Of a DNA stretch of 64,000 nt, positions 28,183 to 57,950 are shown piece by piece (position 1 is the first letter of the stretch; each line of letters opens with the position of its first letter). The notes under the pieces were generated by a model. It ran no database searches. It was not told where the DNA came from and saw only the letters and a list, made by a program, of their open reading frames with translations. Both the position numbers and the translations under genes were made by a program. The stretch spans positions 310,001 through 374,000 of the forward strand of contig JAHBXD010000002.1 in NCBI GenBank assembly GCA_019636695.1. Reading direction: 5' to 3'. This DNA is from Phycisphaeraceae bacterium (GTDB lineage: Bacteria > Planctomycetota > Phycisphaerae > Phycisphaerales > UBA1924).

Positions 28183-28218
28183 ACAAAAGGCGGGCACGCT
28201 TCAGAGTCGAAGCGTGCC
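28183..28218 (-). terminator. Terminator after the first GC-ending dockerin gene
   Basis: A perfect 10-bp stem (28193-28202 with 28209-28218, loop AGAGTC) is followed on the minus strand, after CGCC, by TTTTG. It lies 64 bases after the stop at 28283, at the left end of the eight-gene cluster. Confidence 0.7.
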
Positions 28219-28282: not shown

Positions 28283-29935
28283 TTACGGGCAGCCGAGGGA
28301 GAAGATATCGAGGAAGAAGAAGAAGTCTGCGGCGTCGATCACGCCGTCCGGAACGCCGTAGTCCGGGTCGTTCGGGTCGGACGAGCCGGTGAGATCGGCG
28401 ACGGCAAGATTGCCGCCCACGAACTGATCGAGGTAGTAGAAGAAGTCGCTGGAATCGACGACGCCGTCCGGCACGCCGTAGGCGGGGTCATTCTGATCGG
28501 CCGAGCCGGAGAGGTCGGCCGGGCAGCCGGGGGCCGAGGCGGTCGAGATGCGCAGGAATGCCTGCGGGGTGCCGAAGGCGGGGTCAGAGTTGAGGTCGGT
28601 CCCGCCGACGGCCGCATCGCGAATGTTGATGAAGATGAGAATGTCGCCGTTGTTGTCGATATTGATATCGTTGGGTTCGAAGGCCGACAGGGTGTTGTTG
28701 CCGCGGCCGACGAAGACATTGTCATCAAACACGCCGTTGCCGTCGAGGTCGATGGGGTCACCCTCACGGAGCACAATGCGTTCGCCGTTGAGCACCAGCA
28801 GATCATCATTGGAAACGTCCGTGGCGTCAGGATCGACGATGCGACCCGAAAGCACCCAGTCACCATTGGTGTTGGCCGCGAACGAATAGAACGACGAACC
28901 CCACACAAGCGACGAGCCGGGATAAATCGGGTCGCCGGTCTTGGCGACGACTTCGCCGTTGATGGCGGCCCAGACGCCCCCGGACCAACTGCCGCGGGCA
29001 TACCAGTCGCCGTTGGAGAGAATGCCGCTGGCGAACACCGCAACCATGTTGATGCCCGATGAGCCGATGGGCATGCCTTCCTGAATCGCAACCTGACCGT
29101 TGTAGACGAGCACATCGTCTGTAGCGGTCGAGCCGGTGTTGACACGCCCGGTGGCGATCCAGTTCGCACCGTCGGGGCTTGTATAGAAGGTGTTGGCCGA
29201 GATCGTCGTCCACAACAGCGATGACATGCCGTCAAGGCTGAGCACCGAGGTGACGTTGGTCTGGTGGAACGCATCCTGGTTGTACATGATCGCCGGACGC
29301 CGGCTCGAGTGAATGTTGAGAATGGTCGAGTCCTGGCTTCCGATGTCACCGTTGTTGAGGATGTGAATCGACCCGACGGAGTTGCCGAAGATCTCATCGC
29401 CCGAGGGGCTCGGAGCCTGATCGATAAGGCCGCTGATCAGGTCGCCCATCTGGAACGCGATGCTCGTGTTCCCGGAAACGAAATCACGGACGAGCACTTT
29501 CTGGAATACCGAGTTCACGCCGCCCATCGCCCGCGCGGAGAACGCGAAGTCGTTGTTGTCATTGAAACGACCGAGGCCCGAGCCGAAGAAGTCGTAGACC
29601 TCTCCGGTCGCGCCGCCGTGCACGGGCTGGCTCTTCTGGGCATACATGGTTCCGGAGTTACCGGACCCGTACACAAGAATTGTCTCCAAGGGGGTGCCGA
29701 GCTGGGTGCGCCCCTTGATGACCCACTGCGTGCCGTCCGGGCTGACGGCGATGTCTTCCAACGCACGCCAGTTGGTGGACACAGGGTCGCCGTTCAGATC
29801 CACCGTGCCCGGAATGACCGACGTGGGATGCCCTGGGATCTTGGTGTAAATCACCGTGATCGTGTCCGCCGCGGCGCCTGCTGAAAGGGCAAGGGCTGCA
29901 GCAAGGGACGTTACCTTTCCGTATCGCCAATTCAT
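28283..29935 (-). CDS. Secreted beta-rich protein with C-terminal GC-ending dockerin-like module (cluster gene A)
   Basis: A 550-residue exported protein. The ATG at 29933-29935 follows GGAGGA and opens a signal peptide ending SAGAAADT. The body (about 25-470) is a set of loosely repeated beta segments (SGLIDQAPSPSGDEIFGNSV, ILNNGDIGSQD, DILIFINIRDAAVG) of the kind seen in planctomycete choice-of-anchor or propeller proteins; I cannot name the fold. The last 80 residues hold two copies of the shared module: CPADLSGSADQ...YGVPDG...SSDFFYYLDQF, then ADLTGSSDP...YGVPDG...AADFFFFLDIF, ending SLGCP. Members of this family in Phycisphaerae are, from memory, called GC-type dockerin-anchored proteins. 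A promoter candidate and hairpin lie in the leader. Confidence 0.8.
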   Translation of the reverse strand: MNWRYGKVTSLAAALALSAGAAADTITVIYTKIPGHPTSVIPGTVDLNGDPVSTNWRALEDIAVSPDGTQWVIKGRTQLGTPLETILVYGSGNSGTMYAQKSQPVHGGATGEVYDFFGSGLGRFNDNNDFAFSARAMGGVNSVFQKVLVRDFVSGNTSIAFQMGDLISGLIDQAPSPSGDEIFGNSVGSIHILNNGDIGSQDSTILNIHSSRRPAIMYNQDAFHQTNVTSVLSLDGMSSLLWTTISANTFYTSPDGANWIATGRVNTGSTATDDVLVYNGQVAIQEGMPIGSSGINMVAVFASGILSNGDWYARGSWSGGVWAAINGEVVAKTGDPIYPGSSLVWGSSFYSFAANTNGDWVLSGRIVDPDATDVSNDDLLVLNGERIVLREGDPIDLDGNGVFDDNVFVGRGNNTLSAFEPNDINIDNNGDILIFINIRDAAVGGTDLNSDPAFGTPQAFLRISTASAPGCPADLSGSADQNDPAYGVPDGVVDSSDFFYYLDQFVGGNLAVADLTGSSDPNDPDYGVPDGVIDAADFFFFLDIFSLGCP

Positions 29936-29980
29936 CTTCCATCCTCCGACGTGTGGGGGTTTAGGCAATTTCGCCAGACG

Positions 29981-30020
29981 AAAATGCCCTTGCTCCCCGA
30001 AATCACAGGGAGCAAAGGCA
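29981..30020 (-). other. Leader hairpin upstream of cluster gene A
   Basis: On the minus strand an imperfect stem (30008-30020 with 29985-29997, one mismatch, 10-base loop) is followed by TTTTCG. It is 45 bases upstream of the gene A start codon and 101 bases after the gene B stop. It could terminate gene B transcription or act as an attenuator for gene A. Confidence 0.5.
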
Positions 30021-30049
30021 CTGTACCGAAGGAGGTGGGGTCGATTCAA
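30020..30049 (-). promoter_or_regulatory. Promoter candidate for cluster gene A
   Basis: TTGAAT (30044-30049) and TACAGT (30020-30025) are 18 bases apart on the minus strand, each with four of six consensus matches. If used, transcription would start inside the hairpin just downstream, so the hairpin would sit at the 5' end of the mRNA. Weak evidence. Confidence 0.25.
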
Positions 30050-30120
30050 GATTTCCCGCGCGGAATCCGCGTATGTACGCGATTTTGCGCGCAAATCGGT
30101 ACATATCCCTGCCAGTGTTC

Positions 30121-31272
30121 TTACGGGCAACCTTCCACAAAGCGATCAAGGAAGTAGAAGAAGTCTGCGGCGTCGACCGTGCCGTCCGGCACGCCGTAAT
30201 CCGGATCGAACGGGTCGGACGAGCCTGTCAGGTCGGCCGCGCAGAAGGGAGGAAGGAACGAGAGGCAGAGGTCGTCAATCGCGACCGTGGCCGTGCCCGA
30301 AGCGGTGCGGATACGCATCGACGCGATGGGGCGCGGCGAGCGAAGGGTCGGCGTGAACTGAACGCCCGTTGCGCTGGCAATAACATTCCCTGCGGCGTCG
30401 AGAATCTCAAAGATGTGTGGCGTACTTAACCCGGTCAGGCCCACATCGGCCGTGACGGCGTAGACGGGCCTCAGGAATGTGGCGTTGATCTGGCCGCCAG
30501 CTGCGCCCTGCGAAGCGAGAAGATTGGGCGGTGAACTCAACCCACCTGGAGCGAACGTGGAATTGTTGAGGATCTCATTGCGATTATCGATCGATGGATT
30601 GGGCATGAAGACGATGCCCTGGGTCTGGAAGTCGGTCGTCAACTGCGCTGTCTGCTCTACGAACAACGCAGGCGCGGAAATCAGCACGTCATCGGCCGTG
30701 CCGATGATGCGGTCAGCACCCGGCGTGCGGTCAAAATCGATGCATACACCCGACAGGGTTCCCTGCAGTTCGTACATATTCAAGACAGTGCTCGGATTGC
30801 CGTTGAATCGGTAACCCACATGGGTCGCAAGACCGGATGGATTCACCCCCCCTGTCGCGCCCGACCACAAAAAGTATCCACCACCACCCGGGCCGTTGAA
30901 GTCCGCACGAATCCAATAGACCTGACCGGCTTGAAGATTGACCCGGGCATCGGGGACAAGAGTGGTCCACCCGGTTTCGACGATCGGGGGAAGGCGCAGG
31001 CCGGCAAGGCGCGTCGTCGGCGCCGGGTCGCCCGACCAGATGCTGAATTCCGGAACTGTGGTATTGCCCAGAACTCGCTCCGTCCGAATCAAAACGGCAT
31101 CGACCGCGAACGAAGCGCCGGAAGGAAGACGAAAGCCCGCATCCTTGATGCCGATATTCGTGCCTGACGATGCCGTAGCGTTCATGTTGCTGATGATCGG
31201 ATCGGCCGCGGCCCCTGAAACCCCAATCGCCGCAACCACGGCGGACGCCACGAGACGAGCGCATAGACGCAT
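30121..31272 (-). CDS. Secreted lectin-like protein with single GC-ending dockerin-like module (cluster gene B)
   Basis: A 383-residue exported protein from the ATG at 31270-31272, which follows GGGAGG. The signal peptide is LVASAVVAAIGVSGAAAD. The N-terminal half (about 25-190) is a beta-sandwich-like segment of the choice-of-anchor type (EFSIWSGDP, VYWIRADFNGPGGGGYFLWS). The C-terminal half has a second beta domain (IFEILDAAGNVIASATGV, then ATVAIDDLCLSF) resembling a carbohydrate- or lipid-binding jelly roll. It ends in only one copy of the shared module (CAADLTGSSDP...YGVPDG...AADFFYFLDRF), then VEGCP. It is the only cluster member with a single copy. No enzyme motif is seen. Confidence 0.8.
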   Translation of the reverse strand: MRLCARLVASAVVAAIGVSGAAADPIISNMNATASSGTNIGIKDAGFRLPSGASFAVDAVLIRTERVLGNTTVPEFSIWSGDPAPTTRLAGLRLPPIVETGWTTLVPDARVNLQAGQVYWIRADFNGPGGGGYFLWSGATGGVNPSGLATHVGYRFNGNPSTVLNMYELQGTLSGVCIDFDRTPGADRIIGTADDVLISAPALFVEQTAQLTTDFQTQGIVFMPNPSIDNRNEILNNSTFAPGGLSSPPNLLASQGAAGGQINATFLRPVYAVTADVGLTGLSTPHIFEILDAAGNVIASATGVQFTPTLRSPRPIASMRIRTASGTATVAIDDLCLSFLPPFCAADLTGSSDPFDPDYGVPDGTVDAADFFYFLDRFVEGCP

Positions 31273-31644
31273 ATTGCTCCCTCCCAAACTCAACAAACCC
31301 ACGTCGGAAAGGACCGCGCACGCCCGCTGTCCTTCTGAGCGATGAGTATACCGGACTTCTTGGTTTCCCCTATGCCGATTTGGTGTTTTTGTTCGGCAAA
31401 GACCCGAGTAGGCATGTGGCAACCCACACCCTACACCGAGCGTACCTGCACCGTACAGTGCATGGCCATGCCGCTGTCACGGCCGCTTGGGCAAACCGGG
31501 TCGTTGATAGGTGATGAGGGCGCCCAAGTGCGCCCGGAGTACACGCGTTCGGTCCTACTCCGTCTCTTCGTCTCTTCGTCTCTTCTCTCCGTCTCTCCGT
31601 CTCTCCGCCTCTGCACCACTCCGTCTCTTCTCCCTCCCCCACGC
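31273..31644. other. Spacer between cluster genes C and B
   Basis: This 372-base stretch has no gene. It holds the leader of gene B, with a -10-like TATACT on the minus strand near 31347, a TGCAC/GTGCA inverted repeat near 31449, and at its right end an 8-base tandem repeat array listed separately. Confidence 0.5.
31561..31629. repeat. Short tandem repeat of CGTCTCTT/CGTCTCTC units
   Basis: Three perfect head-to-tail copies of CGTCTCTT (31561-31584), then CTCTC, then two copies of CGTCTCTC (31590-31605) and a degenerate one. A further CGTCTCTT lies at 31622-31629. The array starts 16 bases past the stop of gene C. On the minus strand it is a purine-only tract (GAGACGGA type). Possible roles are slippage-prone sequence or mRNA-end structure; none is shown. 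Confidence 0.8.
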
Positions 31645-33492
31645 TCAATTGCACCCGGAGACGAAGAGATCGAGGTAATAGAAGAAGTCGGCAGCGTCGA
31701 GCACACCATCGGGCTGCCCGTACGCCGAATCGGCCGGATCGGCCGAGCCGGTCATGTCGGCGACGGCAAGATTGCCCGCGGCGAACTGATCCAGGAAGTA
31801 AAAGAAATCGGACGTGTCGAGCAAGCCATCCGGTACGCCATACGCCGGGTTGAGCGGATCGGCCGAGCCGGAAAGATCGGCCTTGCATTCGCATTCATCG
31901 GGAATGCCGTTGCCGTTCAGGTCAAAACTGTCGCCGCGCGCGATATCGATCTCGTCGCAAATGCCGTTGTTGTTGCAATCGACGGTGATTTCGGGCAGCA
32001 GCGTGACAAAGCCCGAAAGCGTTCCGCCGCAATCGGTGTCGATGCGGACCTGGTAGACGCCCGCATGATGCGGCTCGAAGGGGTCGAACGTGAGCGTCGG
32101 CGTGTTGGCGCCTTGAACGAGCATGCCGTTCTGCCGCCAACTGAACCGCATGTTCTCGCCGAGCGCAACTACCGAAAGCGACGCCGGCCCGCCGTAACAG
32201 GCCGTGGTGTTCTGCGGCGGGGTCACAATGACCGGGCTGTCGTCGTACGCGAGGCTGCACGCGGAGATGGTTCGGAGCACGAAGTTGATCTGATGATTGA
32301 CACGGGGGTGATTACGCAGGTTGATGTTGGTCATGCCACCGGGGCAGGTGTGGCAATACGACATGATCGTGCCTTCCCAGGCGTCCGAGCAGTCGCCGTT
32401 GCCGCAACCGTCGATCACGGGGTCGTAACTGCCGATATCGTGGGTATGGCCGGAGCCGAGGTTGTGCCCGAGTTCGTGTGCCGTCACCATGATGTCCCAG
32501 TTCTGGCCGTGATGATCGACGAGGGGATACGGGAAGAACCCGGCAAGGTTGGCCGAAAGCCCGTAGGCGTTGCCGTTGCAGACGGCGCTGAGATAGGCCA
32601 CGCCCCCGCCGAGGTTCCGTCCGGACAGAAAATGCGCCACATCACGCTCGACATCCGTGCGATTCTGCGCCCACCAAGAGCGGAACTGGTTCAACTGGGC
32701 CGAAGTGCTGTTCTGGTTCCACGGATCGTTCGTCGTCCAGAGACTCAAGTAACTGATCCGGAATCGGAGATTGACATCACGGGTGTAAATCTCGGTCAAT
32801 GCGGCGGTGAGCAGTTGAATATATGCCGTCGCATTGGCGGTGCTGCCGCCGAAACGATTGACGAGCAACTCGCGATCGGTTTCGTACGCGATGTCGATGA
32901 TCCGGCACGGATACGCCGGGTTCTCAGTCTCAGGAATGCCCCCGGGCGGCGTGAGACGCTGCTGCTCGATGTTCTCCGCGATCTCTTCCATCGTGCAGGT
33001 AAAGCCCGTACGCAACTCCGCCGGAAGCGCATGCAGCGGGGCGATCACCGGTGTCAGATCCTCCCCGGCCGGACCCGTGCTCAGCACCCACATCTGCCCC
33101 TCAAACTCGATGAGGCCCGCCACAAGGTCTTCCGTCAGCGTAAGCGTCACCAGCGAATCATCGTGCCCGAGCACCCGGCCGACAAAGACCGGATCGAGCG
33201 GCACACCAAGGTCAACCACACCCTGCGCCGTGGTCGCCACCACCTGCGCATGCGGCGCAAACACGTCGGCCCGGCGCAGGACGAGCGTGACCGAGGTGTC
33301 GCGGTCGAGCGGGAAACCCTGCACGATCGCGACATGCCGGGCATTGAGTTCTGCGGCACGAAGACGGTCTACAGACAGCATCGTCCAGCCATCATCGGGC
33401 TGGTGGGCCGCCACGAGCACGGGCGAGACAACGACATCGGCAAACATCGGGGCAACGCATGCCGCGGCGGCGACCAGACCAGTACGCATCAT
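31645..33492 (-). CDS. Secreted metalloprotease with GC-ending dockerin-like module (cluster gene C)
   Basis: A 615-residue exported zinc protease. After a signal peptide (to about residue 19) comes a propeptide-like region, then a catalytic domain with HELGHNLGSGH at residues 339-349 (HExxHxxGxxH) and a Met-turn TIMSYC at 375-380, together the metzincin (reprolysin/M12B-like) signature. A Cys-rich stretch follows the active site. A beta domain resembling Ig/PKD (TPPQNTTACYGGPASLSVVA, about 430-500) comes next. Then an EF-hand-like CNNNGICDEIDIARGD...DLNGNGIPDECE segment precedes the shared module in two copies (GSADPLNP...YGVPDG and GSADPADS...YGQPDG), ending VSGCN. The likely role is extracellular protein digestion. 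It is cluster gene C of eight. Confidence 0.88.
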   Translation of the reverse strand: MMRTGLVAAAACVAPMFADVVVSPVLVAAHQPDDGWTMLSVDRLRAAELNARHVAIVQGFPLDRDTSVTLVLRRADVFAPHAQVVATTAQGVVDLGVPLDPVFVGRVLGHDDSLVTLTLTEDLVAGLIEFEGQMWVLSTGPAGEDLTPVIAPLHALPAELRTGFTCTMEEIAENIEQQRLTPPGGIPETENPAYPCRIIDIAYETDRELLVNRFGGSTANATAYIQLLTAALTEIYTRDVNLRFRISYLSLWTTNDPWNQNSTSAQLNQFRSWWAQNRTDVERDVAHFLSGRNLGGGVAYLSAVCNGNAYGLSANLAGFFPYPLVDHHGQNWDIMVTAHELGHNLGSGHTHDIGSYDPVIDGCGNGDCSDAWEGTIMSYCHTCPGGMTNINLRNHPRVNHQINFVLRTISACSLAYDDSPVIVTPPQNTTACYGGPASLSVVALGENMRFSWRQNGMLVQGANTPTLTFDPFEPHHAGVYQVRIDTDCGGTLSGFVTLLPEITVDCNNNGICDEIDIARGDSFDLNGNGIPDECECKADLSGSADPLNPAYGVPDGLLDTSDFFYFLDQFAAGNLAVADMTGSADPADSAYGQPDGVLDAADFFYYLDLFVSGCN

Positions 33493-33678
33493 TAATGAAC
33501 CCCCCTACACGGAGCCTGCCTGAGAGCAAGGCTCCACTCCGGGAAAGTACCCAGAACATGGCCTACCTCGCTTCCAGGATGCTGACATGTTCGCACCACG
33601 TCGGGATCGGTTCAGGCCTCCTCGCGATTGAGCGCTCGCAAGTGGCTTTTGAGCTTGAGCATGCTGGCCAAACCGATG

Positions 33679-33716
33679 AAAAAAGCACCGGCCCAGGGTT
33701 TGCCCCAGGCCGGTGC
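33679..33716 (-). terminator. Terminator after cluster gene D
   Basis: A perfect 9-bp stem (GCACCGGCC at 33685-33693 with its complement at 33708-33716) with a partly pairable loop, followed on the minus strand by six T (33679-33684). It lies 41 bases after the stop of the trypsin-like protease gene. This is a textbook intrinsic terminator. Confidence 0.85.
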
Positions 33717-33757
33717 GAGTGCCGTGTACCGGGTAGGCAACCCGGCGGAAAACACGA

Positions 33758-36214
33758 TCAGAGGCCGGCGCAACCGGCAACGAAGACATCGAGGAAGAAG
33801 AAGAAGTCGGAAGCGTCGACGACACCATCAGGCACGCCGTAGTTCGGCGACGAGGGGTCGCTGGAGCCGGTGAGGTCGGCGACGGCGACATTGCCGATCA
33901 CGAACTGGTCGAGGTAGTAGAAGAAGTCGGCCGAATCGATGCGACCGTCGGGCACGCCGTAGAGCGGCGAGCCGGGGTCGCTCGAGCCGCTGATGTCAGC
34001 CGGGCAACGCAGCACGGTGATTGTGTTGGTATCGCTGACCCACGACACGGGCGAGCTGTCGCTGGGAACGATGCGCGTCCCGATGTAGTACGTGCCGGGA
34101 TTCATCGTCGGCGGCAACTGGACGATGGAATTGACGGTGCGGCTGGCGCCCGGGGCGAGCGAGGCGTAGTTGCGCGTCTCAAGCAGCAGGTCGATGGTCG
34201 AGATGATGTTGTTGGTGCTGGCGCGGAACTCAAGCAGATAAGTCGAACTCGTCGTACCGCCGTCGTTGCGCGTGGTGTGCACGACCGGGAACATCGAAGC
34301 CCCGCGGTAGAAGACGTTGTTGGGCGGATTGGGGGCATCGCACGAAACGGCCGTCAGGCTGGCGGGTGTCGCCTGCGTGGTGAACTGCCAGGTCGGGCCG
34401 GTCACGTTGCCCGCGCTGTTGCGAGCCACGACGCGCCAGAAATAGGTCGTGTTGAAGGCGAGGTTCGGCAGGTTCCACGAGCTGTTGGCGGTGTTGCCGA
34501 CAAAGGGCGGCGGATTGGTCGTGCCGAAATACACATCGTAAGTGGTGGCCCGGGCGCTGTCATTCCAGCCGAGATTCGAAGTGATCGGATTGTTGGTCGA
34601 GAAGTGCGCCGGCTCGGGGCCGCTCGGGGTATCGGGCAGGCCGAGCGTGATCGTCACCTGCTGGGCATCCCACGTATCGGTGTCGTTGTTGCCGACGTTG
34701 ACATCGCCCGGAGCATCCACCTCAACGCCCATCCAGTAGGTGCCCGGAGGCGTGTTGATCGGAATCACCGTGCCGGGCACGAGGAACGTGCGATTTTCCA
34801 TCGCGGCGAAGTCGATGTTGTAGTTCCATGTGGCAAGCAGCGTATCCGCCGCGGAAATATTGTTGTTGGTCGAGAGATACACCCGCGCGGTGTAGGTCTG
34901 CTGAGGCGGGTTGTTGTTTGACGTATTGGCGGCGATGAACCGAGCCTGGCCGAAGTTTGTACCCGCCTGGATGGTCGTCGAGCCGTCAAGGCGGAACTGC
35001 AGCGCCTCGATGTCAAGCCCGCTGCCGCGCACGTTCGCGATCGACGAAACAATACCGCCCGATCCATTGACGAAATTGTCCCACAGCTTGGCGTAACGAC
35101 CGATCGTCGAACGGTTCGAGTTCGAGCAGACCGCATGCACGAATCGATTTGATCCATCGATGTAGTACATCCCCGAGCCGCTCATACCCCCCCAGACGGC
35201 CGTCAGACACCCCGTGGTGGTGTCAAGCTGAAGCTGGTTACCCGGGCACGAATCGACCGACCCGAACCAGTAATACATGTCTCGCCCGGTGTGCAGCCCG
35301 CCGCCGCAGGATTCCGCCGGATAACTGGTGTTGTGATAGGTGCGTCCCTGGATGGTCGCGCAGGTCTGCCCCCAGGCCCAACCGAACGTGCCCGTCAAGG
35401 CGCCGACCGAGCGGTCATAGCAGAGCGCCAGGCCCACGTCGAAATCGAAGTTGCCGTCATTGACCCAACTGTTCGCGCCCACGCTCGAGACAAACCCGGT
35501 CGCACGCGTATAGCCGTAGTGCTCAATCACGCTGTCGGCATTCGGCGGCGTGAAAACGCCCGGGCCGCTGGTGCCGTCCCACGCGGGATAAACCCAAATC
35601 TCCGAAGCCCACGCGAAAATATTCGTCCCCGTCGCCGTGCGCGCATAAACGCAGTGGCCCGCGGTCAGCACCACGCCCGCGTCGATCATCGTGCCCGAGC
35701 ATGAAAAGAAGCGGTTGTTGCCGCCCTGATCGACAAACCGCATGATGAGCTTGCAATTGGCCCGCCAGGGGAAGTTCGCTCGCCCGGGATTGGTCTGCAG
35801 CGACATCGTCCCGAAGCCCTCGGGCGTCATCAGGTCAGCCCAGGTGTCCCAGCCCTCTACACCAGGAAAAGTCTGCCCACCCTCGCCCGAACCCATGCCG
35901 CCGAATGCATCCAGCGGGAAGTAAATCGTCTCGCCCGTGACGGCGTCGTGAAGCGCCAACGCATCGGGCTGACCGTCATTATCCGTGTCGATCGGCTCCG
36001 GCATCGGCATCGGAGGAATCTGATCAAACGGCGGGTGGTTCGGTGGAGCAATGTCAAGGTCGTTCCCGGGACCGACCACGACCACATCGCTCAGCAGCGT
36101 TGGGTGAACCACCCCCCCGTACGTCATCGGAGGATTCACCTGGCCCGTGGCGTACCCCGCCGCGGAGACCATCACCATCGCCGCACATAGACGGCCCATT
36201 CCATTCGGCAACAT
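33758..36214 (-). CDS. Secreted trypsin-like serine protease with CARDB/FN3 domains and GC-ending dockerin-like module (cluster gene D)
   Basis: An 818-residue exported protein; the ATG at 36212-36214 follows AGGAAA. The signal peptide is MVMVSAAGYATGQ. The catalytic domain (about 140-395) has the trypsin triad: H187 in LTAGHC, D259 in FDVGLAL, S345 in GGMSGSG. Two CARDB-like beta domains (about 400-530 and 640-740) flank an FN3-like domain (about 545-635, WNDSARATTYDVYF to TWQFTT). The C-terminal module is present twice (GSSDPGSP...YGVPDG...DFFYYLD and GSSDPSSP...YGVPDG...DFFFFLD), ending VAGCAGL. That is two residues longer after the Cys than in any other cluster member. A terminator follows at 33679-33716. 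Confidence 0.88.
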   Translation of the reverse strand: MLPNGMGRLCAAMVMVSAAGYATGQVNPPMTYGGVVHPTLLSDVVVVGPGNDLDIAPPNHPPFDQIPPMPMPEPIDTDNDGQPDALALHDAVTGETIYFPLDAFGGMGSGEGGQTFPGVEGWDTWADLMTPEGFGTMSLQTNPGRANFPWRANCKLIMRFVDQGGNNRFFSCSGTMIDAGVVLTAGHCVYARTATGTNIFAWASEIWVYPAWDGTSGPGVFTPPNADSVIEHYGYTRATGFVSSVGANSWVNDGNFDFDVGLALCYDRSVGALTGTFGWAWGQTCATIQGRTYHNTSYPAESCGGGLHTGRDMYYWFGSVDSCPGNQLQLDTTTGCLTAVWGGMSGSGMYYIDGSNRFVHAVCSNSNRSTIGRYAKLWDNFVNGSGGIVSSIANVRGSGLDIEALQFRLDGSTTIQAGTNFGQARFIAANTSNNNPPQQTYTARVYLSTNNNISAADTLLATWNYNIDFAAMENRTFLVPGTVIPINTPPGTYWMGVEVDAPGDVNVGNNDTDTWDAQQVTITLGLPDTPSGPEPAHFSTNNPITSNLGWNDSARATTYDVYFGTTNPPPFVGNTANSSWNLPNLAFNTTYFWRVVARNSAGNVTGPTWQFTTQATPASLTAVSCDAPNPPNNVFYRGASMFPVVHTTRNDGGTTSSTYLLEFRASTNNIISTIDLLLETRNYASLAPGASRTVNSIVQLPPTMNPGTYYIGTRIVPSDSSPVSWVSDTNTITVLRCPADISGSSDPGSPLYGVPDGRIDSADFFYYLDQFVIGNVAVADLTGSSDPSSPNYGVPDGVVDASDFFFFLDVFVAGCAGL

Positions 36215-36636
36215 GTGTTTCCTTTCCTTCCTCTTTCCCACGCAAGCAGCCGACATCCGGCCGCTTTGTGATCAACCGCTACACGTGAATCTGCCGCGGC
36301 ACCCGCACCCCGCGCAACAACACCCCGGCGCTTCCCGAGCCAAGGGCAACCCCTAAGGCTGAGCCAGGCAACGTCGAGGCGAACCTCAAGCCGCGTGATA
36401 CTTCACTCTGCGTCAAGAGCAGACCCCATGCGTAACTCAGGATAGACATGGGGCAAAACCATCCGCGCGCAAGAGTCCGGAAAAAATGCGCGCCGAATCA
36501 CAATTTCATCCAATCGCCCTATCGAAACTGCGACATCGGCGCCGAAGTCCCGCAAGAGCAGGATTTTGTACGCAGACGATCCAAGACATCGGCATCCACG
36601 ATAGCCCGATCTGACCCCTTCCCACGCTCGCGCTGC
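36215..36636. other. Spacer between cluster genes E and D
   Basis: This 422-base stretch has no credible gene. It contains a 7-bp inverted repeat, CCCCATG/CATGGGG (36424-36453, 16-base loop), without a T-run, and a second GCGCGC pair flanking an A-run near 36465-36514. The promoter of gene D should lie here, but I cannot identify it with confidence. I see no known riboswitch. Confidence 0.45.
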
Positions 36637-39432: not shown

Positions 39433-39612
39433 GCCCAACCCTCCGGCGGGAACACTCGCAGCCTCGCGCCGCGATCACCCCGGAAGGCAGCATACCACCC
39501 GCGAACACATACCCATAGCGCTATCTGGAACCTTCGAAGAAAGAGACCACCCGCACCCCGACTTGAGGCACGCTCGATCTGCTCCAACGCGCTGACAACC
39601 GCGATCCGCCTC

Positions 39613-40992
39613 TCAACCGCAGCCGAGCACAAAGACATCAAGGAAGTAGAAAAAGTCCGATGCATCAAGCAGACCATCCGGCACACCGTAATCCGGACTC
39701 GTCGGATCACTCGAACCGCTCATGTCAGCGACGAGGAAGTTCCCTTCGGTGAACTGATCGAGGAAGTAAAAGAAGTCTGAAGCATCCACCTGCCCGTCGG
39801 GCACACCATAATCCGGATGCATCGGATCGCTCGAGCCGCTCAGGTCGGCCCGGCAGACCGGCGTCGTCTCGCAGATGTCCGCCGTCCCGTTGCCGTTGTG
39901 GTCTGTGCAGTCAGTGCCTCCACCGGCAAATGTCCCCTGGAATGCCGAGCAAATCGCCTCGGTCACACCCGATACGCACCCGCCCGTCGACGTGCAGCAC
40001 GCACCGATCGGCGCTGGGCATTGCACCGATCCGCACGAAACGCCGTCTCCCTGATACACCCCGTTGATCGCCGCGCAATCGGCCACCAGCATCGGCTCGC
40101 ACGAACCGTCAGGCTTGCAGCAAGCGCCCACCCCCGGCTGACAGTTCACCCGAGTCCAGTTCGCCTTCATCACGATATCGCCCGAGGGGCGGCAGAGAAA
40201 ATTGAGCTGCTGAAACGTCGCCCACCCTCCGTTGGGCGGACACCCGAGAAATCCGCAATTCAGCCCGAACAGCCAGTTCCCCGCCGGCGCGGCCAGCCCC
40301 GAACGATCCGTCACCGGAAAGGCGTTGAAAGTCTGCGGCGGCGCCTGCACGCATGGGTCCTGCGTCTGAAGGTTGTGCTCGTCGATGCGCAGCGCGATCG
40401 TGAAGCGACTCGTGCCGCTGTCGTTGAACAGGAAAATCTGTTCAGGATCACCCGGATCAACCACCAGGCGCACATTCAACCCTGCCGTGCCCGGGCCGAT
40501 CCGCGCATGCGGCAGAATCAGATCATCCGATGAAAACTCGTACATCAGAATGCCGGTATTCGGTGGACCATCCCACACCAGCACCGACCACGCCGTCACC
40601 GTCTGCACGCTGGCGTTCAATGTCGCAAGAATGAAATCAATCTGATCAATGCGAATCGGGAAATCGCTCGGGGCAAGCACATAGGTCGCCGCGAACATTT
40701 CACCCTCGCCGAACCCTGCCTGAAGGGTGTATGACCCTCCGGTAAAACTGGCGTCGGTGTGCGAGGCTTCAAACGTGCACCCCGACTCAGGCATAGCAGG
40801 CCCGCCCCCCGGAAGCACCCGCCCGCCGGTGGTCACGCGCAGCACATCAAGCGAATCGAGCACGATCGGCCGCTCATGCACCGCGCGCGAATCCGGCGGC
40901 GGCACATCGACCGACGCAACCTGGCCAAGCACACCAACGGCCCCGGCGCTGAGCAGAGCAGCCGCGGCGGAAACCCGTGCATGATGAATCAT
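39613..40992 (-). CDS. Secreted Cys-rich GACC-repeat protein with GC-ending dockerin-like module (cluster gene F)
   Basis: A 459-residue exported protein; the ATG at 40990-40992 follows GGAGGG. The signal peptide is SAAAALLSAGAVGVLGQ. Residues about 70-280 form a beta-rich domain (FILATLNASVQTVTAWSVLV, FTIALRIDEHNLQ) of unknown function. Two Cys-rich repeats follow: GACCKPDGSCEPMLVADC with an NGVYQGDGVSC tail, and GACCTSTGGCVSGVTEAIC with FQGTFAGGGTDC. An EF-hand-like DHNGNGTADICE and the shared double module (GSSDPMHP...YGVPDG and GSSDPTSP...YGVPDG) end the protein at VLGCG. No enzymatic motif is seen. Confidence 0.8.
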   Translation of the reverse strand: MIHHARVSAAAALLSAGAVGVLGQVASVDVPPPDSRAVHERPIVLDSLDVLRVTTGGRVLPGGGPAMPESGCTFEASHTDASFTGGSYTLQAGFGEGEMFAATYVLAPSDFPIRIDQIDFILATLNASVQTVTAWSVLVWDGPPNTGILMYEFSSDDLILPHARIGPGTAGLNVRLVVDPGDPEQIFLFNDSGTSRFTIALRIDEHNLQTQDPCVQAPPQTFNAFPVTDRSGLAAPAGNWLFGLNCGFLGCPPNGGWATFQQLNFLCRPSGDIVMKANWTRVNCQPGVGACCKPDGSCEPMLVADCAAINGVYQGDGVSCGSVQCPAPIGACCTSTGGCVSGVTEAICSAFQGTFAGGGTDCTDHNGNGTADICETTPVCRADLSGSSDPMHPDYGVPDGQVDASDFFYFLDQFTEGNFLVADMSGSSDPTSPDYGVPDGLLDASDFFYFLDVFVLGCG

Positions 40993-41130
40993 GGCTATCC
41001 CTCCTGGAGCCAAAGGCATGTGCGCAAGCATACTGAAAGCGGTTTCGATTGAAACCTCTCTCTCGCAAAAACCCGGTGCTGACCACCTCAAAGACCGAGA
41101 CCCGGCGTCCCCCGTCCCATAAAGCAAGGA

Positions 41131-41152
41131 AAAAGCCCGCGGCCCGCGGGCG
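41131..41152 (-). terminator. Terminator after cluster gene G
   Basis: On the minus strand a 7-bp all-GC stem (41146-41152 with 41136-41142, loop GGC) is followed by five T (41131-41135), 62 bases after the stop of the large adhesin gene. Confidence 0.75.
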
Positions 41153-41213
41153 CCCTTGGCTCCTCCCGCAGGCCGCTAGATGCCTCCCCATACGCTCCCG
41201 AACGCGGTTCGGT

Positions 41214-44200
41214 TCAGCCGCACACCCCCGTAAAGATGTCGAGGAAGAAGAAGAAGTCGGATGCGTCAACAACCCCGTCTTTGACGCCGTACGCCGGGTC
41301 CATCGGGTCGCTCGATCCGCTCAGATCGGCGCGGGGGTCTTGAGAAACAAACAGGTCGAGGTAATAGAAGAAGTCCGCGGCATCGAGCACACCATCGGGC
41401 ACGCCGTAGTTCGGATCGCTCGGATCGCTCGACCCCGACAGGTCGGCCTTGCACCGAACCTGAAGCTCGACCTTGTTCGGGAAGTACACGAGCTTCCACT
41501 CGACGCCGCCCAGGTCAGGCGCCACCAGGTTATCAAACAGGCCGTGCACAGCCGACCCCTGCAGAATCACGAAACGCTGGTTGAGCACCGGCGTAAACCC
41601 GGTCAGGTGCGTCACCTGCACCGTGCCGTCAAGGTTCCATGTCGCGTTGCCCGTCAGGCGGTCAAACACGCTCGCCGTCGAGACTTCCCAGTCATACATC
41701 GAACTATTCGCGAGGTTGATCGTGCCGTTCAACACGTCGATCGTGCCCGCCGAGAGACCCGGCGCAAGCGTCCCTTGGAAGTGGAAACTGCCCCTCGTCT
41801 GCCCGATGCCGGTCAACGTCTGGCCCGGCCCGAGAGTACCCGTGACGGCATTGGCCTCAAGAATGCTCCGGTTGGCCACACCCGAAAGACGCACCTCGCC
41901 CGTACCGCCGATGGTGCCCGCCGCGTCAAACTGCAACCTGGTTTCTGAACCTACGTTAGTCGGGTTGACGTCAATGATCCCGTTGTTGGTGATGCTTCCC
42001 TGCAGCCGAAGATTCGACCCGAAGGCGACCCGATGCTCTCCGGAAAGCGTCGTGCCGGAAAGAAAGTTGAATCCGGTATACCCGACAACCGAACCGCCGA
42101 CGCCTTGCACGGCGCCGCCGGTAATTGTGCTGTTGGTCAAGGTCACCGTGCCGCCGTCGTTGCGGATCACCCCGCCGCCGCTTTGCGTCACGGTGATGCC
42201 GCTCACCTGTACCCCGCCGCCGCCGATCGCCTCGATGATGCCGGTGTTCGTCTTGGCGTTGGTCAACAGTTCCAACGTCTGGCCCGAGACATTGCCGCGC
42301 ATCGTCGAGTTGTTCGTCATGGCGGCCCGCACCTGGCCGAAGCCCGTGACAAGGTGGGGTGAAGCATGCGTCACCGCCACGCCGACGTTCGAATCCAGTA
42401 TCGCGCGGTTGGCTATGCCGGCCAGGCGAACTTCGCCTGCGCCGCTCAGTGACCCCGACTCATCAAACCGCAAGCGCGTCTCCACGCCGGCACCGGTCGG
42501 ATTGATCGTGATCAACCCCGTATTGACCAACCCCGAGCCGACCACAAGAAGATTCGCCCCCCCGGGCACCTGCCCCGCCCCGGAGGTCGAGACATCGCGG
42601 AACGTCGTGTTGCCGCTGGCTTGCCAGAATCGCCCCGCAAGCGCCCGCACCACGCCGCCATGCACCTCCGCGCTCTCAAAGCCCACGAAGCCGTCGGTCG
42701 CCTCGATCACGCCGCCTGCGCCCTGAGTAATCGTGATCCCTGACACCACGAGCGACCCATTGCCCTCGGCGTGCATCAGGGCGTTGTTGGTCTTGTTGTT
42801 GACGTGGAGGCGGAGCACTCGACCATCAACATCCGCCGCAATCGTGCCGTTGTTCACCATCGCGGCATGCACTTGCCCGAAGCCGTGTACCCGGTGGCTT
42901 GCGCCCTGGGTGAGCACACCCGGAGCCAGGGTGTCCAGGATCGCGCGATTATCACTCGCCGCAAGGCGTATCTCGCCATTGCCCGAGATTGTCGAAGCAT
43001 CTTCTACGCGCAGTCGCGTCTCGATGGCGATGTTGGTCGGGTTGAGCGTGATCATCCCGGTGTTGGTTAGCCCGCCGGTCACACGCATGTTCGCCCCGGC
43101 ACTGACGTCAAGCAAGGCATCGGTCGTCACGCCGTTCATGGGAACGCTGCTTTGCACCAGCACCAGCCCCGAACCGCTCGAACTCACCTGGCCCCCCGAC
43201 ACCGACGACCCTACCTGGAAACGCACCGTACCGTCGTCCGCACGAATCACGCCCGAGGGCGACTGCGTAACCCCTGAACCGAAATCCAGGAAGGCTCCCC
43301 CCGCTGCTTCCATCACCGAGTTGTTGACCTTCGGATGGGTATCGAGCCGAAGCACCTGCCCCGCGATATCCGAACGAACCAGCCCGTTGTTCACAAGGCC
43401 CGCGCGAACTTGCCCGATCCCCCGAATCGCGTGCTGTGACCCCTGGGTCACGATCGCCGTGTCATTAACCGCGTCGAGAATCGAACGGTTCGTCGACCCG
43501 GCCAGCATCACTTCGCCGGTGCCGTCGAGCGCGCCAGCCTGATCGAAACGCAGGCGCGTCTCCAAGGCGGCATTCGTCGGGTTCACCGTCAACGTGCCGT
43601 TGTTCGTCAATCCCGTCCCCTGCACCAGAAGATTCGAACCCCCGTTGATCCGAACCAGCCCCTCCGTCGTGACGCTCGTGAAGGTCGAATTCCCGCCCAC
43701 GTTCACCGTAGATGGCGATACCCCCTCCACCGTACCGCCGACGATGCCGCTCGTACCGGAGGTAGACACGGTCCCCCCGTTGGCCTGAATAAGCCCGCCG
43801 GCGCCTTGCGTGACCGTGATATTGCTGATGTCAAGCTGCCCGCCGCCGCTCGCCCTGAAAAGGGCGTTGTTCGTCATCGGCGATGTCAGCAGCGAGAGCG
43901 TGTTGCTGTTGACGTTGGCATCCACGGTCCCGTTGTTGATGATCGCCGCGGAAATCAGGCCGAAACCCTCGAACCTGTGATTCGCCCCGTTGGTCACCGT
44001 GGCGCCGGCCCCGCTCGAGACGATCGCCCGATTGCTGCTTCCGCCCAGCCGCGTAATACCGTTCCCCGTGATGTTCGTGCTCGCCGCATAGTGCAATGTC
44101 GTTTGCAATGCCCCGTTCGTGGGGTTGATCACCAGCAGCCCGCGGTTGTTATACGTCGGGCCGTTGATCGTGAATATCCGGCCTGCGGGCAGGTCAAGCC

Positions 44201-44450
44201 TCACATTCCCGATGGTCTGCTGAAGCGAACCGATCCCGAAAGACCCGTCGATCGTCACGGTGTACGTCCCGTTCACATTGAACCGGGCGTTCTCGCTCGC
44301 CGTGTCCGGCACATTCATCGGATCCCAGTTCGCGGCGTTACTCCAATTGCCGTTCACCGCCGCGACCCAGTCGATCGTCTGCGCCTTCGCAACCTGTGCC
44401 AACCCGAACGCAGCCCCAGCCGCCAACACCAGCTTGCTGACCTGACACAT
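41214..44450 (-). CDS. Large repeat adhesin with GC-ending dockerin-like module (cluster gene G)
   Basis: A 1078-residue exported protein; the ATG at 44448-44450 follows GGAGGAG. The signal peptide ends GLAQVAKAQ. The N-terminal part has an NGNWSNAANWDPMNVPDTAS motif typical of autotransporter-like/PEP-CTERM passenger proteins. It is followed by five repeats of about 150-170 residues, each with INPTN...ETRLRFD, GxGEVxLAGxxNRxILD, a HxVxGFGQVRA element and a GGGxLxISxITVTQ element. This suggests a long right-handed beta-helix. A closing domain (TPVLNQRFVILQGSAVHGLF, then PDLGGVEWKLVY) precedes the shared double module, ending TGVCG. A clear paralogue of the neighbouring gene H. Confidence 0.85.
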   Translation of the reverse strand: MCQVSKLVLAAGAAFGLAQVAKAQTIDWVAAVNGNWSNAANWDPMNVPDTASENARFNVNGTYTVTIDGSFGIGSLQQTIGNVRLDLPAGRIFTINGPTYNNRGLLVINPTNGALQTTLHYAASTNITGNGITRLGGSSNRAIVSSGAGATVTNGANHRFEGFGLISAAIINNGTVDANVNSNTLSLLTSPMTNNALFRASGGGQLDISNITVTQGAGGLIQANGGTVSTSGTSGIVGGTVEGVSPSTVNVGGNSTFTSVTTEGLVRINGGSNLLVQGTGLTNNGTLTVNPTNAALETRLRFDQAGALDGTGEVMLAGSTNRSILDAVNDTAIVTQGSQHAIRGIGQVRAGLVNNGLVRSDIAGQVLRLDTHPKVNNSVMEAAGGAFLDFGSGVTQSPSGVIRADDGTVRFQVGSSVSGGQVSSSGSGLVLVQSSVPMNGVTTDALLDVSAGANMRVTGGLTNTGMITLNPTNIAIETRLRVEDASTISGNGEIRLAASDNRAILDTLAPGVLTQGASHRVHGFGQVHAAMVNNGTIAADVDGRVLRLHVNNKTNNALMHAEGNGSLVVSGITITQGAGGVIEATDGFVGFESAEVHGGVVRALAGRFWQASGNTTFRDVSTSGAGQVPGGANLLVVGSGLVNTGLITINPTGAGVETRLRFDESGSLSGAGEVRLAGIANRAILDSNVGVAVTHASPHLVTGFGQVRAAMTNNSTMRGNVSGQTLELLTNAKTNTGIIEAIGGGGVQVSGITVTQSGGGVIRNDGGTVTLTNSTITGGAVQGVGGSVVGYTGFNFLSGTTLSGEHRVAFGSNLRLQGSITNNGIIDVNPTNVGSETRLQFDAAGTIGGTGEVRLSGVANRSILEANAVTGTLGPGQTLTGIGQTRGSFHFQGTLAPGLSAGTIDVLNGTINLANSSMYDWEVSTASVFDRLTGNATWNLDGTVQVTHLTGFTPVLNQRFVILQGSAVHGLFDNLVAPDLGGVEWKLVYFPNKVELQVRCKADLSGSSDPSDPNYGVPDGVLDAADFFYYLDLFVSQDPRADLSGSSDPMDPAYGVKDGVVDASDFFFFLDIFTGVCG

Positions 44451-44678
44451 ATCGAGACTCCTCCAAGACAAGAGTGGCATGCACCCAAAACGAGCCGTAG
44501 TCCCGCCCGGCAGAGCCGTGCGGTCCTGCAGGAAGCCGCGCACCTGCATGCGCGCAACCCTCAGTCACAGAACGCTTTGGGTCACTCGCTCGATCCTAAC
44601 ACCGGATCGAGCGCCCGCCAGATGTCTAACCCTCGACATACGCCGTTCGGCGTACGCCGAAGCCCCTCACTGAGGGAG

Positions 44679-47654
44679 TTATCCGCAGTTCCCGGTAAAT
44701 AAATCCAGGAAGAAGAAAAAGTCGCTCGCGTCGATCACCCCGTCCTTGATGCCGTAGTCCGGGTGCGTCGGGTCCGATGTCCCCGTCAGGTCGGCCCGAG
44801 GATCCTGCGCGACGAAAATGTCCAGGTAATAGAAAAAGTCGGTCGCATCGATCACCAGGTCCGGCACTCCGTAGTTCGGGTCGTTCGGATCCGTCGACCC
44901 GGAAAAGTCGGCCTTGCAGACCACCTTCAACTCCACCGTCGTCGGTTTATACACCGGACGCCACGTCAGGCCGCCGAGATCCGGCCCGGTCACGTCTCTG
45001 AACACTCCGCCGAACGAAGACCCTTGCATGATGATGAACGTGTTGCCCAGCACCGGCGTAAACCCGCCCAGCGGCTGCACGTCAATCACCCCGTCGAGCA
45101 GATACTGCGCGTTCCCCAGCACACGATCGAACGACGATGTACTCGCGATCTCCACCTCCAGCACGCTCGCTTCGGCCATCGCATATTGCCCCGCGATGGT
45201 GATCGAGCCGACCGAAAGCCCCGGCGCAAGCACCCCGGCATTCGTCACCTCGCCCTCGACCCGCCCGATGCCGCTGAGCCGCTGCCCCGCCCCCAGCACC
45301 ACCGGCGACCCGTCGGGCGCGTTCAACTGCGAATCGCCCAGGTTCCCCCGCAGCCTCACCTCCCCATTCCCAGTCATCGAAACCGGCCCCGAAGCCGTCA
45401 CGAGCGCATCGAACGAACTTGCCGTCGGGTTGATGAGGATCAGGCCGTCATTGACGATCTCGCCCGACACCAGCACCGTCGCCGAAGGCCGCACGTAAAA
45501 CGTCCCCAGCACCCGCACATCCGAAACCGAGGATGCCCCGCTCGAGGCTTCAAGTGAACCGTCGCCCGTGCCGTCCAGAATACCCCCCGACACCGACGAA
45601 CCGCCGATGAGACCCAGCGTTCCGCTGCTGGCATGAAGCACGCCGGTCGCTGCTTGCGTCACCATGCCGGCGATCTGCAGCGCGCCCCCCGCGAAATCGC
45701 CGTCCACGCGCCCTTCATTATGCACCGTAGCCAGAATCCGCCCTCGACCTGCGATCGTGTGATCCGCCCCGTTGGTCAGCACCGCCCCGGGCTGGCTGCT
45801 CAAAGTCGCATCCAGCGCAGCGCCGTTCAACGCCAACCGTCCGCTCCCGCTGATTGTGGCCGACGCAACGACATCAAGAATCGCATCAATCGAACTCGCC
45901 GAAGTGTTCACACGAATCACGCCTTCATTGGTCACGCCCCCCGATTCGATCTGCAGAGTCGCCCCAGGCGCCACATCAAACAATCCGAGATTGGTAATCC
46001 CGCTGATCGTCGAACTCCCGCTTCGCGCCTGCACCAAGCCCGCGCCGATGGTGTCGGTCACCCCGCCCACCAGCGTCCCGCCCACCAGCCCCAAAATCGC
46101 CTCGTTTCCCATGCAGACCCCGCCGACGCTCTGCGTCACCACGCCGGAAATCTCCAGCGGCGACGCCAGGTTGTCCCCCGAGATCAACCCGTGATTCACG
46201 ATCGTCGCCGACACCCTCCCGCGGCCTGCGATCGTGTGCTCCGCCCCGTTGGTCAGCACCGCATCGTCGATGCTCCCCAGTTGGGCATCAAGCGATGACG
46301 CATGCAGCCGGAGGACGCCCTCGCCATCCACCACGCTCGATTCGGCAATCTGCATCACCGCGTCAATCGTCGAAGCCGTCGGGTTGATGATGATCTCGCC
46401 GTCATTGGTGATCCCCGGCGCAAGCACATGCAGCACGGCGCCCGGCCGCACCTCGCCGATCCCCGCGTTGCGAAGATCGCGAATCGATGAAGTGCCCGAT
46501 CGTCCCTGCCAGCGCCCGTTTCCCGCCGAATCCAGGGTTCCCCCTTCGATCAATCCGCCCTGGATCAACCCCAGAATCCCCTCATCGCCCGAGCAGACCC
46601 CCGTGGCCGACTGCGTGATCGCCCCGCTGACCTCGAGCACCCCTCCGGCCACATCGGCCACGATCATCCCGTGATTCATCACGGTCGCGAGCACGCGGCC
46701 ACGCCCGGAAATGGTGTGCGTCGCGGCGTTGGTCAGCACCGCTTCCGGCTGGCTCGTCAACTGGGCATCGAGCGCTGCCCCGTTCAACCGAACCTGCCCC
46801 GCCCCCGACAAGGTCGCCGAGGCCGCAACATCGAACAGCGCATCGATCGTACTTGCCGTGGTGTTCACCACCAGAACGCCGTCGTTCACCATGCCGCCCG
46901 ATTCCAGCCGCAACGTCGTGCCCGGCGTCACGAACCCATCGCCCTCGTTCGTTACGCCGTCGAGCGTGCTCACCCCGCCGACGGTTCGCCAGAGGCCCCC
47001 GTTGAGCGTGCGTAGCGCGCCGCCGTTGATCCGCCCGCCGCTGGGCAGGCCGATGCTGCCGCCGTCGGCGATGCAGGCGCCCGCGCCCGTCTGCGTCAGC
47101 GTGGCCGCGATCTCCAGCGCGCTCGACGCCGAATCGCCGATGATGCTGCTCTCGTTGACCATCAGCCCCGTAATCCTGCCGCGACCGCGGATCACATGCG
47201 GATACTGCTGCGTCAGCGTCGCTCCCATGGTCGCTTCAAGGCGCGAGTCAAGCGAGGACCCGTTCAACACGATCGACCCCGAACCGCTCAGCACTGTGTC
47301 CGCCGACACTGCGAGAATGCTGTCAATCGTGCTCGCGGTCGGGTTTACCCGAATCAATCCGTCGTTGACGAACAACCCGCTCAAGAACGTCAGCGTCGCC
47401 CCCGCGTTGAGCGTCAGCGTCGCATCGGGATTGAACAACTCCAACCCCCCCACACCCACGACGCCGCTCACCGTAATGACATACGTGCCCGGAAGCACCA
47501 CTCGCGCAAACTCCGAGGCCGTGTTGGGCACATCCGCCGGATCCCAATTCAATGCGACCGTCCACGCCCCCCCGCTTGCGTTGTTCCAAAACGTCTGCCC
47601 CTGCGCCAACCCCGCTCCGGCCAGCAGCATGCACGTCATCGCCCGCATGTTCAT
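44679..47654 (-). CDS. Large repeat adhesin with GC-ending dockerin-like module (cluster gene H)
   Basis: A 991-residue exported paralogue of gene G; the ATG at 47652-47654 follows AAGGAG. The signal peptide is TCMLLAGAGLAQGQT. The N-terminal motif is ALNWDPADVPNTASEFARV. Five beta-helix repeats carry NPTASTIDSIL-type and GRGRVxATVxNHG-type elements, with about 30% of their residues Gly, Ala or Val. The closing domain (TPVLGNTFIIMQGSSFGGVF, then PDLGGLTWRPVY) is the same as in G. The double module (GSTDPNDP...YGVPDL and GTSDPTHP...YGIKDG) ends TGNCG. In the first copy the usual DG is DL. It is the first gene of the cluster in transcription order, divergent from clpB. Confidence 0.85.
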   Translation of the reverse strand: MNMRAMTCMLLAGAGLAQGQTFWNNASGGAWTVALNWDPADVPNTASEFARVVLPGTYVITVSGVVGVGGLELFNPDATLTLNAGATLTFLSGLFVNDGLIRVNPTASTIDSILAVSADTVLSGSGSIVLNGSSLDSRLEATMGATLTQQYPHVIRGRGRITGLMVNESSIIGDSASSALEIAATLTQTGAGACIADGGSIGLPSGGRINGGALRTLNGGLWRTVGGVSTLDGVTNEGDGFVTPGTTLRLESGGMVNDGVLVVNTTASTIDALFDVAASATLSGAGQVRLNGAALDAQLTSQPEAVLTNAATHTISGRGRVLATVMNHGMIVADVAGGVLEVSGAITQSATGVCSGDEGILGLIQGGLIEGGTLDSAGNGRWQGRSGTSSIRDLRNAGIGEVRPGAVLHVLAPGITNDGEIIINPTASTIDAVMQIAESSVVDGEGVLRLHASSLDAQLGSIDDAVLTNGAEHTIAGRGRVSATIVNHGLISGDNLASPLEISGVVTQSVGGVCMGNEAILGLVGGTLVGGVTDTIGAGLVQARSGSSTISGITNLGLFDVAPGATLQIESGGVTNEGVIRVNTSASSIDAILDVVASATISGSGRLALNGAALDATLSSQPGAVLTNGADHTIAGRGRILATVHNEGRVDGDFAGGALQIAGMVTQAATGVLHASSGTLGLIGGSSVSGGILDGTGDGSLEASSGASSVSDVRVLGTFYVRPSATVLVSGEIVNDGLILINPTASSFDALVTASGPVSMTGNGEVRLRGNLGDSQLNAPDGSPVVLGAGQRLSGIGRVEGEVTNAGVLAPGLSVGSITIAGQYAMAEASVLEVEIASTSSFDRVLGNAQYLLDGVIDVQPLGGFTPVLGNTFIIMQGSSFGGVFRDVTGPDLGGLTWRPVYKPTTVELKVVCKADFSGSTDPNDPNYGVPDLVIDATDFFYYLDIFVAQDPRADLTGTSDPTHPDYGIKDGVIDASDFFFFLDLFTGNCG

Positions 47655-47984
47655 CGCACGTCTCCTTCGTCGTCCCGAACACGCCCGAAACCCATTCCAG
47701 CGCGCCAAAGAGCCATCATCCGACCGCCGCACACGAAAACCAAGAAAACATCTCAAAAAACCACGACAGCCCCCAGATGTGCAGGGCGCCCGCGATCACC
47801 GACCAAGCCAGTCCGCCCAAATTCACAAATCCCCCCCACCTTCCTGCCACTTCGGCAGGCACACCCCCCGCCCGTCACGCTCCACTCCCTGTCACGCCCA
47901 TATCCGCTCCGCATCCGACAGGCGCGCCGATTGCTCCCGATCAGGCACGCGGCACGCTCGACCGACCGCCGCACGGAGTCCACC
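47655..47984. promoter_or_regulatory. Divergent promoter region between cluster gene H and clpB
   Basis: This 330-base stretch has no gene of its own. The open frames crossing it have no family resemblance and no proper ribosome binding sites. It must contain promoters for both divergent genes. I could not identify a CIRCE/HrcA-type inverted repeat or a clear sigma32-type promoter. Confidence 0.4.
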
Positions 47985-57947: not shown

Positions 57948-57950
57948 GTC

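Follow-up and report, generated by a model that had tools for sequence, protein, structure and literature searches.

Many exported proteins of the PEP-CTERM/exosortase system share a common C-terminal module, a short transmembrane signal removed by cleavage. Dockerins are another kind of module, and annotated genomes commonly contain them without any cohesin. The dockerins with a solved structure have head and tail joined through a Tyr/Trp-Pro clasp (PMC4728124, PMC5934362), and in the dockerin of C. thermocellum the Ser-Thr pair S11-T12 contacts the cohesin (PMC4728124). The ScaA and CttA dockerins of Ruminococcus flavefaciens have a 12-13-residue insert in one calcium loop, the second (PMC5934362). 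For planctomycetes (Nemodlikiaceae) it has been proposed that peptidases of the M12B and M14 families assemble into cohesin/dockerin complexes, under the name "planctosome" (PMC6461901).

The tails analyzed here come from a window of 64,000 nucleotides (the whole stretch of DNA that was analysed) of a Phycisphaeraceae bacterium. The closest description is NCBIfam NF041540 (GC-type dockerin domain-anchored protein), the model matched by the eight tails of the window as well as by all 70 carriers read in the genome. This family is so far a name only, the phrase "GC-type dockerin" was absent from the literature searched, and the genus of the window has its long-loop form. With the cellulosomal type I dockerins (PF00404) the GC tails share the two calcium loop-helix repeats and probably the clasped ends, and the short-loop relatives also share the fold. 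They differ by a Cys pair in place of the aromatic-proline clasp, a shorter overall length, a non-cellulosomal cargo and no recognisable cohesin, and the long-loop tail of the window scores below PF00404. Compared with ScaA and CttA, which have known cohesin partners (PMC5934362), most tails here carry the insert in both loops. The planctosome, proposed for related planctomycetes, likewise has M12B and M14 peptidases that bear dockerins, but it requires cohesins and none were found here. PEP-CTERM proteins also share body families with the GC carriers, but the GC module is predicted to be a folded domain.

A cluster of eight carriers

Eight consecutive genes on the minus strand (28283-47756) code for proteins with a plausible signal peptide that match NF041540 at their C-terminus, seven of them with 75-88 bits and the one at 30121 with 40 bits (the curated cut-off is 29 bits). 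The eight stop ends given in the earlier note (28283, 30121, 31645, 33758, 36637, 39613, 41214 and 44679) were exact, and both the common C-terminal module and its annotation as a GC-type dockerin held in all of them. In seven tails the unit C-x-AD-[LFI]-[ST]-G-(12 residues)-DG-x-x-D-x-x-DFFYFLD-x-F occurs twice in tandem, with a Cys 1-3 residues before the end. The tail at 30121 has a single repeat, yet with Cys on both sides. The earlier note did not mention this repeat structure. The module had also been characterized as ending in Gly-Cys. A Cys near the end is present in all eight, but the literal Gly-Cys ending only in six. One residue follows the terminal Cys in seven tails and three in 33758.

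The first carrier (28283..30130, tail at 28286-28525 with two repeats, ending in GCP) is an exported protein of unrecognised fold whose true start is probably near 29935. It is followed by a choice-of-anchor R body (30121..31422) with the single-repeat, Cys-bracketed tail (30124-30243, also ending in GCP). The third (31645..33492, tail 31648-31887) and fifth (36637..39438, tail 36640-36876) are M12B (reprolysin-like) metzincins with the motifs HELGHNLGSGH and HELGHNFGTLH respectively, the latter with a propeller-like C-terminal part. Between them lies a trypsin-like body (33758..36256, tail 33761-34006, ending in GCAGL) whose Pfam match remains just below the cut-off (20.2 vs 20.6 bits). The sixth is again an exported protein of unrecognised fold (39613..41127, tail 39616-39855). 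The last two are repeat proteins, probably beta-solenoids, with tails ending in G-V-C-G (41214..44549, tail 41217-41453) and G-N-C-G (44679..47756, tail 44682-44918). The bodies had been considered unrelated, but they amount to six families and not eight, because the two M12B proteins (31% identity, 2e-38) and the two repeat proteins (31% identity, 8e-103) are pairs of paralogues.

Hairpins followed by a T-run are found on the same strand after 41214 (41135..41151), after 33758 (33685..33716, a strong one with 14 pairs and T6) and after 28283 at the cluster end (28193..28218). They suggest at least three transcription units rather than one operon, with matches of this kind being overall about as frequent in shuffled sequence. 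Elsewhere in the window (53626-60190) there are genes resembling those of nonulosonic-acid synthesis and flagellin glycosylation, coding for a PseD-like protein, NeuB and NeuC.

A dockerin-type domain with enlarged loops

Four short-loop relatives matching NF041540 all passed the Pfam Dockerin_1 profile (PF00404) with 23.3-37.3 bits (cut-off 22.9), and the long-loop tail of the window gave no match above this cut-off. When the long and short profiles were aligned (98.9% probability, 2.8e-17) the only gaps were exactly one of 12 residues per calcium loop. The form found in the genus of the window reads as a dockerin-type domain in which each calcium loop is longer by 12 residues. Each of the two Asp-rich loops (a single one in 30121) is followed by a helix, and the predicted calcium-ligand positions 1, 5 and 12 of the loop are nearly invariant. 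In some tails, both in this genome and in the MAG OFTM8, the insert is missing from one or both loops. The DFF-x-(Y/F)-LD helix is still there in these tails, which makes the insert optional but not the helix. The genome of OFTM8 (L187) contains long-loop and short-loop tails with the same helix signature, a natural experiment on the insert.

The structure predicted for the tail of 33758 (pLDDT 96.2) has helices at 25-36, 40-43 and 65-80, the first and last being those that follow the loops. Neither Foldseek nor VIA-align matched this long-loop model to a dockerin in the PDB. With a short-loop tail as a control (pLDDT 96.1) all 14 VIA-align matches listed were dockerins (Z 2.4-5.5, over residues 1-53), so that the missing match is attributed to the loop inserts and says nothing for or against a new fold. 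At the sequence level, a PDB search with the profile of the long form returned nothing beyond chance hits to synaptotagmins, and single-sequence searches with the short-loop relatives gave mostly dockerins as best matches, with 2y3n_B on top. The profile comparison and the short-loop relatives together give good support for reading the window tail as a genuine dockerin-type domain.

A cysteine at each end of the tail

Two-repeat terminal arrays, taken from this genome and from others, numbered 310. Both Cys (the one that precedes the first loop by two residues and the one beside the C-terminus) were present in 297, neither in 7, only the last in 6 and only the first in none, counts that for the exceptions rest on a manual reading of array boundaries. 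Two of the six last-only tails (L200 and L208) are errors of the array start and do contain CPAD, leaving L055/L168, L047 and L365. The coupling is strong (Fisher 3e-11, uncorrected for kinship). Among 20 low-ranking tails of another genome (G189) at least five lacked both Cys, and one (L356) possibly retained only the Cys ahead of its first loop. Arrays of one, two or four repeats are bracketed by the pair, and in 15 carriers of this genome (excluding L056, without the pair) these are the sole two Cys of the mature protein. The parity of Cys numbers in mature carriers was even in 38 of 66, not clearly more than half, and it did not discriminate as a test for disulfides.

The matched loss and retention of both Cys favours a structural disulfide over a processing signal. 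Most likely, judging from this pattern in the sequences, the terminal Cys is half of a disulfide staple with the Cys before the first loop, and by analogy the simplest reading is that this clasp takes the place of the aromatic-proline clasp. The earlier note had placed a Cys near the end of the shared module, which held; the processing enzyme suggested as a possible partner would fit less well with such a matched pair. Two M12B tails of other genomes, L364 (G305) and L387 (G304), carry further Cys pairs within the dockerin domain, in addition to that at the ends. A carrier with a long proline-rich extension after the tail, in which the first Cys is absent, was found at L047:6646-7992.

Carriers in the genome and in the family

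A profile search of the complete genome (3.11 Mb), as proposed in the earlier note, gave 74 matches, and 70 carrier proteins were read; by a simple rule, 66 of them have a clear signal peptide. Their bodies include M12B proteases, an M14 peptidase/zinc carboxypeptidase, subtilases, beta-propellers and choice-of-anchor bodies. Eight carriers in under 17 kb is not a chance arrangement, the maximum in 20,000 random placements being six per 17 kb. The idea that the putative route is concentrated at this cluster found no support, since the genome has about 70 carriers and a second, larger cluster holds 12 of them in 28 kb, in addition to three smaller clusters. A relative of another genus had 110 matches. 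In a sample of the class (n=298) all genomes of the window's family carry GC tails, and the per-genome counts there are lower bounds, as most family genomes reached the number of matches scored. A GC-type tail also appeared in a MAG labelled Proteobacteria RA.bin98 (L214), either by binning error or by transfer. Outside the window, at ~699,880-713,830 of contig G000:C1 (L392:3382-17326), one open frame of ~4,600 codons has about 20 repeats resembling secretin N-domains and ends in a secretin domain, making it a giant secretin far longer than the usual GspD.

One tail type per genome

The tails are more similar within genera (identity 0.63-0.82) than between them (0.28-0.60). For 151 of 152 tails the nearest neighbour belonged to the same genus, and the remaining one was the only tail sampled from its genus; part of this sample consists of best-scoring matches, but the weaker matches in this genome and in a wider sample of G189 were mostly of the same type. 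The M12B proteins illustrate the pattern. Their body is conserved family-wide at ~40% identity, and their tails are closer to the other tails of the home genome (0.53-0.72) than to the M12B tails of other genera (0.38-0.44). In round figures, a tail is about 70% identical to the others of its genome and about 42% identical to tails on its own protease family from other genera. Since identical residues use the same codon almost as expected from random codon choice (0.535 observed vs 0.498 expected), this likeness is not due to recent copying. The information on the genus is maximal at loop positions 14, 10 and 11, and positions 10-11 appear to correspond by analogy to S11-T12 of C. thermocellum.

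A genus-specific version of the tail suggests that each genome encodes its own putative receptor, and the earlier proposal that the eight proteins are cargo of one shared route gains from it, as the tail type is single in a genome whatever the body, and as the same body family elsewhere has PEP-CTERM. The single type could instead reflect slow gene conversion or an early expansion by tail grafting. A related possibility is that the tail has no partner, being a calcium-dependent cap for folding and stability or an aid for release across the outer membrane, its likeness resulting from descent and slow gene conversion. The frequent clustering of carrier genes, some of them paralogous, and the slight excess of codon identity would fit with this, but the genus-specific residues are located beside the calcium ligands and on helix 1, approximately at the positions where known dockerins contact cohesin (PMC4728124). 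The length of the loop also varies, and a mere cap need not differ so much among genera. We thus regard a tail without partner as unlikely.

Sorting signal, cohesin or another receptor

In the window's family the choice-of-anchor R body comes with GC tails (L308, L310, L311, L314) and, in one genome, with a PEP-CTERM-like end (L325); in other families it comes with PEP-CTERM. Such exchange supports an anchoring or sorting role for the GC tail. The exosortase was considered as a mutually exclusive alternative and rejected, as it is present in 291 of the 298 genomes of the class including this one, which has one exosortase and, alongside the GC tails, at least four PEP-CTERM proteins. The exchange of tails and the position of the Cys, 1-3 residues from the end in nearly all carriers, might also be read as a sorting signal proper, of the PEP-CTERM, MYXO-CTERM or GlyGly-CTERM type, in which the terminal Cys would be cut, lipidated or joined by a sortase-like enzyme. 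Of the features of a processed signal (short motif, transmembrane helix, basic end) none was found in the eight tails, and the module is predicted to be folded. Furthermore, the last Cys was not seen to be lost alone in the 310 two-repeat tails; the Cys before the loop, needless for processing, goes with it. These observations make a processed signal very doubtful.

If the tail docks, a cohesin would be the obvious partner. An ordinary cohesin-dockerin assembly, with the tails binding the cohesin modules of a scaffoldin, would agree with the dockerin fold seen in the short form and with the planctosome proposal (PMC6461901), given that M12B and M14 carriers occur here as well. The Pfam cohesin profile found none in this genome, and in the class sample a single genome of the window's family had a match, below threshold, although all the family genomes there carry GC tails. 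A profile built from planctomycete cohesins also found none in this genome and had clear matches in only 2 of 61 family genomes. The planctosome is therefore not transferable in its cohesin form, because the cohesin was not found in this genome and is rare in the family, and we consider this assembly quite improbable. The cohesin-like receptor that had been suggested as a partner loses ground on the same results. From these searches, the putative receptor is not a recognisable cohesin.

A model for cohesin-independent docking

The reading that we find rather probable is an exchangeable, stapled dockerin tail, borne by cargo of the Sec pathway and recognised outside the cell by one non-cohesin receptor, or type of receptor, per genome with which it co-evolves. 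The cargo would be exported via Sec, driven by the signal peptide. The tail, two calcium loop-helix repeats that in the window's genus have 12 extra residues per loop, would fold with its ends locked, most likely by a disulfide that joins the Cys lying two residues ahead of the first loop to the one beside the C-terminus. Outside the cytoplasm the folded tail would dock on a receptor encoded by the genome, and this docking would retain or assemble some 70 different enzymes, adhesins and beta-proteins, presumably at the surface. Recognition may take place mainly through the helix face and the residues just ahead of it (loop positions 10, 11 and 13-15). Tail and receptor would change together, giving every genus its own tail type. 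The domain identity and the pattern of co-evolution are well supported; the domain assignment, copy number, coupling of the Cys, single tail type per genome, exchange of bodies with PEP-CTERM and absence of a recognisable cohesin are computed, and we infer the disulfide, the binding of calcium, the receptor and the location at the surface from sequence.

More tentatively, and with somewhat less than an even chance in our estimation, docking independent of cohesin, by one putative extracellular receptor per genome co-evolving with ~70-110 stapled tails, may be a main display route throughout this family of the Phycisphaerae. The question of what a dockerin without cohesin binds becomes testable here, with ~70 carriers in one genome and a tail type specific for the genus, and the model predicts that retention would be lost or gained when tails, or individual loop positions, are exchanged between genera. 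If true, the disulfide staple would be the structural reason for the "GC" ending, and the class would have a second general display route beside PEP-CTERM.
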